Assembly: GCA_019247075.1 (NCBI GenBank)
Contig: JAFAPR010000211.1
Location: 1-34,560, forward strand
Source: Solirubrobacterales bacterium
GTDB taxonomy: Bacteria; Actinomycetota; Thermoleophilia; Solirubrobacterales; Solirubrobacteraceae
Length of the DNA stretch: 34,560 nt
Direction of reading: 5' to 3'
Shown here piece by piece: positions 19,190 through 26,438 of the stretch; position 1 is the stretch's first letter, and each line of letters opens with the position of its first letter. Made by a program: the position numbers and the translations under genes. Below the pieces are notes generated by a model that saw only the letters and a program-made list of their open reading frames with translations, made no database searches and was not told the origin of the DNA.

Positions 19190-22999
<3,810 letters not shown>

Positions 23000-23005
23000 T
23001 ACTCT
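23000..23005 (+). promoter_or_regulatory. -10 box of the leuA leader transcript (TACTCT)
   Basis: TACTCT starts one base after the serA stop and ends 8 bases before the leader-peptide ATG. It would give leuA its own promoter, with the leader peptide translated from a nearly leaderless 5' end. Confidence 0.5.
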
Positions 23006-23013
23006 AAGACGCG

Positions 23014-23067
23014 ATGTCGCTCCTTCTCGACCCGCGACTTCTTCTCCTCCCCCTGCGGGGGGAATAG
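23014..23067 (+). CDS. leuL: Leucine-rich leader peptide upstream of leuA
   Basis: The ATG at 23014 opens a 17-codon ORF reading MSLLLDPRLLLLPLRGE, with eight leucine codons in runs of three, four and one, and a TAG at 23065-23067. Three of the leucine codons are CTT, which looks unusual next to the CTG/CTC-dominated genes around it. It lies 68 bases before leuA. Leucine-codon-rich leader peptides are the classic sensor of leu attenuators: ribosome stalling when charged tRNA-Leu is scarce changes the folding of the downstream RNA. The ORF is seen directly; its translation and role are inferred. Confidence 0.75.
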   Translation: MSLLLDPRLLLLPLRGE

Positions 23068-23131
23068 CACGCCGGCGGCCGGGCCACGGCCGCACACCAC
23101 CGCGAGAAGAGCACCGTCGAGATTAAAGGAG
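23020..23131 (+). promoter_or_regulatory. Candidate leucine-responsive attenuator of leuA
   Basis: Three elements fit an attenuator. First, a TCCCCC/GGGGGA stem with a TGCG loop (23048-23063) lies at the end of the leader ORF. Second, a perfect 7-bp stem (23075-23081 with 23087-23093, 5-base loop) follows the leader stop. Third, leader bases 23020-23031 (CTCCTTCTCGAC) can pair with GTCGAGA and AGGAG at 23116-23122 and 23127-23131, 12 pairs with a TTAA bulge, burying the leuA Shine-Dalgarno. A ribosome stalled on the leucine codons would block that pairing and expose the site. No U-tract follows either hairpin, so control of translation initiation is more likely than transcription termination. 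Confidence 0.55.
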
Positions 23132-23135
23132 TGAC

Positions 23136-24725
23136 ATGAAGGCTATCCCGGATCAAAATCGAGTACTGATCTTCGATACCACGCTGCGCGACGGCGAGCA
23201 GTCTCCGGGCATCTCGCTGAACGCGCAGGAGAAGCTCGAGATCGCCCAACAGCTCGCGCGGCTTGCAGTCGACGTGCTCGAGGCTGGCTTTCCCATCACC
23301 TCGCCCGGCGACTTCGAGGCGGTGCGGGAGATCGCCCGCAACGTCGAGGGGCCGGTGATCTGCGCGCTCGCGCGCACGGCCGCCGGCGATATCGATCGTG
23401 CCTGGCAAGCGGTCAGCGACGCGGCCAGGCCCCGCATCCATACGTTCATCGCCACCAGCGACATCCACATCCGCCACAAGCTGAGGACCACGCGCGAGAG
23501 CGTGTTGGGCCAGGCCCGCGCGGCGGTGGCGCACGCCCGCAGCTACACCGACGACGTCGAGTTCTCACCCGAGGACGGCTTCCGCTCCGACCGCGAGTTT
23601 CTGGCTGAGGTGATCGCCGCCGCGATCGAGGAGGGGGCCACGACCATCAACGTCCCCGACACTGTCGGGTACGCCACGCCGGAGGAGTACGGCGCGATGT
23701 TCACGGAGCTGTATGAGCTGGTGCCGGCTCTACGCGAGGTGACCGTGTCAGTGCACTGTCACGACGATCTCGGTCTCGCCGTCGCCAACTCGCTGGCCGG
23801 CCTGCGCGCGGGCTGCCGCCAGGTGGAATGCGCGGTCAACGGCATTGGGGAGCGGGCAGGCAACGCCTCGCTCGAGGAGATCGTGATGGTCTTGCGCACG
23901 CGCGCGCCCTACCTCGGCCTCGCCACAGACGTTGATACGGCCGAGATTGCGCGCACCAGCCGGCTGGTGTCAAGGCTGACCGGCTACGCGGTCCAGCCCA
24001 ACAAGGCGATCGTGGGCCGCAACGCCTTCGCGCACGAGTCTGGGATCCACCAGGACGGCGTGCTCAAAGAGCGCGGGACCTACGAGATCATGGACGCGAC
24101 GACGGTCGGTCTGGAGGCCAACTCGATCGTCCTGGGCAAACACTCGGGCCGCCACGCGCTTGCACGGGCGCTGGCAGAGCTCGGCTTCGAGGTCAAGGGC
24201 GAGACCCTCAACGCCGCCTTCCGGCGCTTTAAGGAGATCGCGGACAAGAAGCGGCACGTGACAGCGCTCGATCTCGAGGCGCTGATGACCGATGAGCTGC
24301 GCGAAGCGGCGTCCGGGTACCAGCTCGAGTGGTTCGAAGTCGAGGCCTCCTCGCGGCGGCCGCCTCATGCCACCGTCGGCATCCTTAGGCCGGATGGCGC
24401 GATCGTGAAGGGTTCCTTCACCGGCGACGGCCCCGTCGACGCGATCTTCCGCGCAATCAACGCGGCCACGGGCCGCGACGCGCGGCTGCGCGAGTTCCGG
24501 GTCGATGCCGTCACCGGCGGCCAGGACGCGCTGGGAGAGACCTCGGTGGTGCTCGAGCTCGGGGGTTCTGACCGTGTCTCGGGCTCCGGTCAAGGCGTCT
24601 CCACCGACATTCTCGAGGCGGCGGGGCGAGCCTACGTGCGCGCCTTGTCGAACGCGCTGCGCCGGCGCGAGATGGTCGGCGGGAAGCCCGTGGCCGACAG
24701 GGAGCCCGAGGCGGTCGGTTCCTGA
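23136..24725 (+). CDS. leuA: 2-Isopropylmalate synthase
   Basis: LeuA condenses acetyl-CoA with 2-oxoisovalerate, the committed step to leucine. The 529-residue protein has an N-terminal TIM barrel with the metal-binding Asp in FDTTLRDGEQSPG, VSVHCHDDLGLAVANSLAG and the CAVNGIGERAGNASLEE signature, then FAHESGIHQDGVLK. A C-terminal LeuA dimer/regulatory domain (KGSFTGDGPVDAIFRAIN) binds leucine for feedback inhibition. AAAGGAG at 23125-23131 precedes the ATG by 4 bases and is the site predicted to be masked by the leader. It converges with the patatin gene. Confidence 0.97.
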   Translation: MKAIPDQNRVLIFDTTLRDGEQSPGISLNAQEKLEIAQQLARLAVDVLEAGFPITSPGDFEAVREIARNVEGPVICALARTAAGDIDRAWQAVSDAARPRIHTFIATSDIHIRHKLRTTRESVLGQARAAVAHARSYTDDVEFSPEDGFRSDREFLAEVIAAAIEEGATTINVPDTVGYATPEEYGAMFTELYELVPALREVTVSVHCHDDLGLAVANSLAGLRAGCRQVECAVNGIGERAGNASLEEIVMVLRTRAPYLGLATDVDTAEIARTSRLVSRLTGYAVQPNKAIVGRNAFAHESGIHQDGVLKERGTYEIMDATTVGLEANSIVLGKHSGRHALARALAELGFEVKGETLNAAFRRFKEIADKKRHVTALDLEALMTDELREAASGYQLEWFEVEASSRRPPHATVGILRPDGAIVKGSFTGDGPVDAIFRAINAATGRDARLREFRVDAVTGGQDALGETSVVLELGGSDRVSGSGQGVSTDILEAAGRAYVRALSNALRRREMVGGKPVADREPEAVGS

Positions 24726-25775: not shown

Positions 25776-26438
25776 ATGGGGAAAGTAAACGTTGGGCGGG
25801 CCCTCTCAGCGGACCACGCAGCTTCACTGACGCGCGCGAGAAACGTGACGCTCGGTGAAATGCGCGACATTCCGAGCGCCTTGGGGCCCCGCATCCGCGC
25901 ACTGCGCGAAGCGATGGACCTCTCATTGCGCGATCTGGCCGGGCGCTCGGGGGTCAGTGCCCCAATGCTCTCGCAGGTCGAGCGCGGGGAGACCAGCCCG
26001 ACGCTCCAGGTGGCCAGTCGCATCGCGAGCGGCTTGGACCTGCGCCTCTCACAGCTGCTGCGGCTCGACGAGGACGGCGCCGTGACGGTGATACGGCGCT
26101 CGGCGCGGCGCAAGGGACCGGCCACCGGCAGCGGGCACCGGTACGAGGTCCTCACTCCGCCGCTGCCCGGCCAGCGAGCGGAGGTCTCGCTGCACACGCT
26201 CGCGCCCGGCGCCAGCACGGGCGGTCGCGCTGACCCGCCGATCCACGAGCCGGGCAGCCGGGAGACAGCGCTCGTCCAGGCGGGCAAGGTCCTCTTCCAC
26301 TGCGACGGCCAGCGCTACGAGTTGAACCTTGGCGACTGCGTCACCTTCGACGCCGACCTTCCTCACGGCTTCGAGAACAGCGGCGATCGCGAGGCCGTGC
26401 TGCTCGCGGTCGTCAGCGCGGGCTTGAGGAGGAGCTGA
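25776..26438 (+). CDS. XRE-cupin transcriptional regulator
   Basis: The 220-residue protein joins an N-terminal helix-turn-helix ([20 protein letters not shown] near residues 44-63, then [20 protein letters not shown]) to a C-terminal cupin barrel ([20 protein letters not shown] and [16 protein letters not shown], carrying possible ligand or metal residues). Such regulators sense small molecules through the cupin. The stop overlaps the leuC ATG in TGATG, so it is translationally coupled to leuCD, which suggests a role in leucine or related metabolite control. The ligand is unknown. The ATG at 25776 matches the promoter, but ATG at 25860, just before the HTH, is possible. Confidence 0.87.

Follow-up and report, generated by a model that had tools for sequence, protein, structure and literature searches.

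A conserved leucine-rich leader ORF before leuA in Solirubrobacterales, and a covarying helix joining its start to the leuA start, suggest a leucine-responsive translation attenuator

The window, meaning the whole stretch of DNA that was analysed, is one entire contig of 34,560 bases; the assembly it comes from totals 3.88 Mb, is split into 367 contigs and is 87% complete. Solirubrobacterales records hold the closest named relatives of its leuA. Pfam and NCBIfam matches identify ilvC, a class-V aminotransferase gene whose position suggests serC, serA and leuA in this neighbourhood, together with a patatin gene on the opposite strand, an HTH-cupin gene, an aconitase-family gene that by position would be leuC, and a citramalate synthase gene. 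The HTH-cupin gene, regulator-like in its Pfam domains, lies between leuA and the aconitase-family gene (25776-26435) and is a candidate local regulator. The gene that we propose to be regulated is leuA itself, which encodes 2-isopropylmalate synthase on the plus strand at 23136-24725 (Pfam; NCBIfam TIGR00973 and NF002086, both above cut-off).

In the gap between the serA stop at 22999 and the leuA ATG at 23136 lies a short plus-strand ORF (23014-23067), which encodes MSLLLDPRLLLLPLRGE and then a stop and reads ATG TCG CTC CTT CTC GAC CCG CGA CTT CTT CTC CTC CCC CTG CGG GGG GAA TAG. Eight of its 17 codons specify leucine, in runs of three, four and one, and three of the eight are CTT. The ORF ends 68 nt before leuA (23068-23135) and is preceded on the same strand by a predicted promoter -10 box, TACTCT (23000-23005), that ends 8 nt before its ATG. 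The initial annotation had picked out this ORF, its leucine runs, its distance from leuA and the TACTCT box, all of them correctly, and had proposed looking for the leucine-rich ORF in relatives, where it is indeed conserved, as set out below.

To sample relatives we drew on 130 leuA loci (L003-L132), of which 127 gave usable upstream regions, 101 of them distinct; L014 has no anchor, and L090 and L106 were too short. On the basis of leuA identity of at least 66% and record titles, without a tree, 82 of the 101 were assigned to Solirubrobacterales, an order of soil bacteria, and the other 19, at 55-59% leuA identity, come from other classes or phyla. Three records titled Bifidobacterium breve or Chlamydiae (L081, L107 and L097) carry leuA loci 67-71% identical to that of the window with the same leader, and their titles are probably wrong. 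A short ORF with a leucine run stands upstream of leuA in all 82 distinct Solirubrobacterales regions and in seven of the 19 distinct loci outside the order, the remaining 12 being without one. Its reading frame was examined in a non-circular manner: a DNA motif served to place the run and a -10 TAnnnT box to place the start, which made 78 of the 82 regions scorable (two have no motif and two no box plus start). Start and run proved to be in frame, with the frame open, in 78 of 78, where frame alone would give about 26; start-to-run distances are also whole codons in the 82 ORFs, a regularity that is partly by construction. Among the 45 leaders of 17 codons, leucine codons outside the main run recur at position 5 (39 of 45) and position 7 (35 of 45). 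One leader, that of L008, has 45 codons instead of the usual 17; it keeps the frame into the leucine run, and an internal ATG offers a shorter alternative. These sequence data show a conserved leader ORF, probably a short gene missed by gene callers, that probably senses leucine supply.

The promoter box recurs with the ORF. TAnnnT lies 6-12 nt upstream of the leader start in 78 of 82 regions, against an upstream background expectation of about 0.2, a count that is biased because the choice of start had favoured starts with a box; the unbiased figure comes from loci with one candidate start and is 30 of 30, at a gap of 6-13 nt. A consensus promoter scan did not list the TACTCT box at 23000-23005, and the -35 region is weak, the best TTGACA match reaching only two to four of six positions in 68 of 78. 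Shine-Dalgarno-like bases precede the leader start in only four of 82 leaders; that they precede leuA in 82 of 82 is by construction, because such bases guided the choice of leuA start. The accessible part of PMC8079986 puts the mean distance from -10 box to transcription start in Streptomyces lividans at 6.3 nt (range 4-9), and by this spacing the leader transcript should therefore begin 0-5 nt before the ATG. The promoter is thus predicted to lie where its transcript would be leaderless or almost so, which is the part of the initial interpretation, together with the conserved leucine-rich leader, that stands.

The 125-nt RNA that spans both ATGs, that of the leader and that of leuA, has a predicted folding energy of -64.4 kcal/mol (z -5.2), which none of 200 shuffles equalled. 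In this plus-strand structure, a helix that we term P1 pairs the leader start codon and codons 2-6 (23014-23031) with a segment at 23116-23137 that covers the leuA Shine-Dalgarno sequence (AGGAG, 23127-23131) and the AU of the leuA AUG, such that the first leucine run (codons 3-5) lies opposite the Shine-Dalgarno sequence. A second helix, P2, joins part of the four-leucine run (23040-23046) to an anti-Leu segment, GAGAAGA (23104-23110). P1 and P2 are both backed by fold and covariation, and two local hairpins are backed by fold and alignment: hairpin B, formed by a C-run and a G-run around the ORF end (23048-23063), and hairpin C (23075-23093). Of the 82 sequences folded, 74 have six or more of their final 17 nt paired to the leader ORF, and 59 have the leader's start codon paired with the start of leuA. 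L040 carries an additional inverted-repeat sequence between hairpin C and the leuA Shine-Dalgarno sequence and retains the start-to-start pairing in its fold. A terminator-type attenuator is not supported here, since no terminator-like site occurs on the plus strand between 22700 and 23400. Rfam gave no match at gathering score, its only match being antisense at E 6.9 and far below its gathering score.

Because the spacing between the helices varies, covariation was assessed by an alignment-free duplex test in which the energy of each genome's own two segments was compared with that of segments taken from different genomes, in the full set of 82 and in 57 representatives under 80% identity. 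For P1, own segments average -13.86 and cross combinations -10.82, with z -10.0 in the full set and -8.6 among representatives and with 0 of 10,000 permutations as good in either set; relatedness among the genomes means that the effective number is below 82. When both ATGs are left out, P1 still gives z -7.3 (all) and -6.0 (representatives). P2 gives -4.0 and -3.2, and a control pair -1.1 and 0.2. Pairing of the main leucine run with the leuA start and Shine-Dalgarno sequence, also considered across the order, was unsupported (z -1.1 for all, -0.5 for representatives) and was rejected as an order-wide feature. In an alignment of 79 of the 82 sequences (A1; L008, L035 and L040 left out), six ungapped start-to-start pairs together with hairpins B and C show 92.1% paired cells versus 40.6-70.0% for slid partners, and 42 cells with both sides changed versus 15.9 in shuffles; the start-to-start helix on its own shows 80.0% paired cells. 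At least seven ungapped start-to-start pairs are formed by 39 of 82 own combinations versus 19.1% of cross combinations, and the window has 12. RNAalifold on the full alignment recovered only hairpins B and C, with 10 pairs. Taken together, sequence variation among the genomes argues for both P1 and P2.

The start-to-start helix is not universal, and this counts against the translation-attenuation reading set out below: it appears in 59 of 82 folds and is unsupported in family f3, in other families of the class and in loci with a type-2 leuA. P1 is supported within f1 (n=30; z -4.3) and within f2 (n=9; z -3.3); P2 gives z -3.8 within f1 and -0.2, no support, within f2. In f3 (n=10, including L100, L102 and L123, which were added by resemblance), P1 has z -0.4 and pairing of the leucine run with the leuA start has z -2.2; f4, with three loci, was left out of separate testing. 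Elsewhere in the class, 17 loci of other families, in which leader starts were picked by eye, give z -5.4 for leucine-run pairing with the leuA start and z 0.8 for P1; these 17 were what remained of 29 after removal of three without an anchor, four without a leucine-run ORF, four repeat fetches of the same genome and L208, whose start is unclear. P1 likewise has z 0.8 in 15 type-2 leuA loci, whose leaders include MRFGLLLLSCRGEGL and of which 14 lie outside the class (15 of 17 loci; L233 and L236 have no leucine-run ORF by the rule applied). The start-to-start helix was thus discarded as a general actinobacterial feature. The family-wise z scores indicate instead that a base stem made by the leucine run, like the published one, occurs in the wider class and that the families of the window pair the Shine-Dalgarno sequence with the leader start region. 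Inspected by eye, the stretch that separates leader and type-2 leuA in L231, L232 and L234 shows a G+C-rich hairpin with a T-run behind it, and this family possibly has a terminator-type leucine attenuator. In L203, also judged by eye, the interval from a 41-codon leucine-run ORF to leuA looks terminator-like as well, with an inverted repeat and then a T-run.

We also searched for the element elsewhere with a core model (R1) built from 57 sequences and applied under stricter filters to 396 genomes of the phylum. R1 matched 21 of them, 18 before leuA, one before leuS (L174, genome G159) and two before neither (L189 and L190), the last two of which look like chance. It gave no match in G212, one genome of the family of the window; further matches in the window's own genome were weak (E 0.116 and 0.559), and the plasmid records searched gave none. 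In G159, the leader (MTPLLALALLLLPPRGE and a stop), P1, P2 and the hairpins stand before leuS, at about 1501-1575 of the locus, and in the fold P1 is intact, pairing GUGACGC with GCGUCAU. The start under P1 belongs to an ORF of 15 codons, and the TGA of this ORF overlaps the leuS ATG. The leuS assignment rests on TIGR00396 (604.3 bits for a 475-residue part, cut-off 548.4). No type-1 leuA was found in this genome at E 1e-100, and a type-2 leuA lies about 2.6 kb further on along the same strand. A leucine element before a leucyl-tRNA synthetase gene would fit a leucine or tRNA-Leu signal.

CTT accounts for 18 of 362 leucine codons in nine genes of the window versus 191 of 561 in the 82 leaders, and CTC and CTT together make up 475 of those 561. 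The genome gave 40 tRNA matches, and the eight long ones, which were typed, comprise four tRNA-Leu and four tRNA-Ser. The tRNA-Leu genes found read CAA, UAA, UAG and GAG, with no CAG tRNA-Leu among the eight in this roughly 87% complete genome; by this set, CTT and CTC would therefore share tRNA-Leu(GAG). The suggestion that CTT, being scarce, sharpens sensitivity to tRNA-Leu charging was thus right about its scarcity in neighbouring genes but is not supported as to the sharpening: as CTT and CTC draw on one tRNA-Leu(GAG), we rejected CTT as a rare-tRNA sensor, and pairing also constrains the codons. A single-isoacceptor sensor and a pairing rule both explain the CTC and CTT excess. Taken to its extreme, the pairing rule would make the ORF a by-product in which C/U-rich strands that pair with purine-rich segments chance to read as leucine codons, and the CTC and CTT share is what an anti-Shine-Dalgarno strand would give. 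We regard this as highly improbable, given that start and run stay in frame in every scorable region, that the start keeps a fixed distance from the promoter box and, with the reservation made above about construction, that start-to-run distances are whole codons.

Based on these data, we propose that the leader is probably part of a translation attenuator that responds to leucine and is related to the LEU element of actinobacteria. We count in its favour the ubiquity of the ORF and its frame, the promoter box, the stability of the fold, the covariation of P1 and P2, the copy before leuS, the absence of a terminator and the ribosome-masking model described below. Under this proposal, transcription would start at the leader ATG or a few bases upstream, and ribosomes would therefore begin at the 5' end itself, on a start codon that no Shine-Dalgarno sequence precedes. 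When charged tRNA-Leu is plentiful, the ribosome would reach the leader stop codon and leave, after which the leader start region would zip onto the leuA Shine-Dalgarno sequence and AUG to form P1; with this helix stacked on P2 and the two hairpins, leuA would not be translated. When leucine is scarce, the ribosome would pause at the early leucine codons and cover its strand of P1, and the leuA start would stay open. Because P1 also covers the leader start, an mRNA that has folded would admit no new ribosomes to the leader either.

The masking model is an equilibrium model with an assumed ribosome footprint. In the 45 leaders of 17 codons, leuA positions -11 to +3 have a mean unpaired probability of 0.61-0.69 as long as the P site is on one of codons 1-7; it is 0.54 at codon 8, 0.46 at codon 9 and 0.39-0.42 from codon 10 on, the value without a ribosome being 0.40. 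In the window itself, the unpaired probability of the leuA start goes from 0.92 to 0.22. The leucines at positions 5 and 7 fall within the open range, and stalls at the last leucine codons of the run do not open leuA in the model. Relative to a ribosome at the stop, one whose A site is at the first leucine of the run makes leuA more open, by over 0.1, in 49 of 81, and less open in one. A more specific version of the proposal, which we hold tentatively, is a start-to-start lock: a leaderless leader start and the leuA Shine-Dalgarno sequence and AUG would share one covarying helix that closes both starts, the first ribosomes would commit each mRNA, and the device would be portable, as before leuS in one genome, with related families pairing the leucine run with the leuA start instead.

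Two other readings keep the leader and place control elsewhere. In Rho-dependent transcription attenuation, leader translation would decide whether Rho loads on the leader or on the untranslated leuA start, and transcript length would be controlled instead of, or besides, translation. The plus strand has no intrinsic terminator, and the accessible part of PMC1262725 raises Rho for terminator-less actinobacterial leaders; P1, however, covers exactly the leuA Shine-Dalgarno sequence and AUG and covaries, and a pure Rho mechanism needs neither, so that we judge it unlikely. Alternatively, the RNA may be the binding site of a regulatory protein with the leader peptide secondary, as PMC1262725, in the part accessible, proposed for the LEU element. 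The structure is compact with conserved hairpins B and C, and the same text reports leuA leader mutations of Streptomyces coelicolor that are inconsistent with classical attenuation; these mutations, and its conclusion that mutations of the leucine codons do not influence regulation, count against an attenuator reading. By contrast, a frame kept in every scorable region and leucines recurring at positions 5 and 7 outside the main run speak against a secondary role for the peptide, and protein binding as the main mode seems to us quite improbable. Translation attenuation thus remains our preferred reading, with leaderless translation, stalling, the direction of control and action on translation as its presumed components.

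A classical leu attenuator couples a terminator to a leader peptide in which the product amino acid is abundant; the leader of the window shares the product-rich peptide and differs in having no intrinsic terminator. In mycobacteria, Canestrari and colleagues reportedly described polycysteine leaderless short ORFs in 2020, which concern a different amino acid and operon. The accessible part of PMC13236596, which describes an attenuator with a terminator in general terms for ilvB1, cites translation attenuation for mycobacterial cysteine genes, and these polycysteine ORFs, leaderless, short, product-rich and said there to act by translation attenuation, resemble our leader in those respects. 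A leuA leader with four leucine codons is described for Corynebacterium glutamicum (accessible part of PMC4046766). Closer in organisation is LeuL1 of S. lividans, the peptide MRFGLLLLSCRGEGL, which lies before leuA on a leaderless transcript without a typical Rho-independent terminator and shares a similar LLLL..RGE ending, being shorter than the leader of the window (PMC8079986, part accessible); two of the 15 type-2 leuA loci in which the start-to-start helix is unsupported carry exactly this peptide. Since leaderless leucine leaders before leuA are thus already known in Actinobacteria from what could be consulted of PMC8079986 and PMC1262725, leaderlessness, which the initial annotation had thought distinctive, is not new. 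The closest relative is the LEU element that Seliverstov et al. (2005, PMC1262725) described before leuA in actinobacteria, with which, as far as its accessible text goes, our element shares the position, a leader ORF with a leucine run, pairing over the leuA Shine-Dalgarno sequence and no obvious terminator. The LEU element is also credited with a base stem, leucine run with leuA Shine-Dalgarno sequence, and with a conserved pseudoknot or alternative hairpin. As to the base stem, the window's first leucine run lies in P1 opposite the Shine-Dalgarno sequence, and pairing of the main leucine run with the leuA start is unsupported across the order and supported in the f3 and class loci. In this comparison of base stems, the families of the window differ in pairing the Shine-Dalgarno sequence with the leader start region, and the main leucine run has a partner of its own, P2. 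Literature on Thermoleophilia and leader peptides gave no match, and we recognised no description of a start-to-start helix among titles and abstract beginnings, a coverage that most subscription papers fall outside. Our analysis adds one short gene, which each of the 82 regions examined from the order contains, and natural variants (the Shine-Dalgarno sequence paired by the leader start or by the leucine run, leuS replacing leuA) that make the mechanism directly testable. Compared with known leucine leaders, the predicted pairing of the leader start with the leuA start looks new, and this covariation-supported structure ties the leader to the leuA ribosome-binding site, where PMC1262725, in its accessible part, had not settled how the leuA leaders of actinobacteria regulate.
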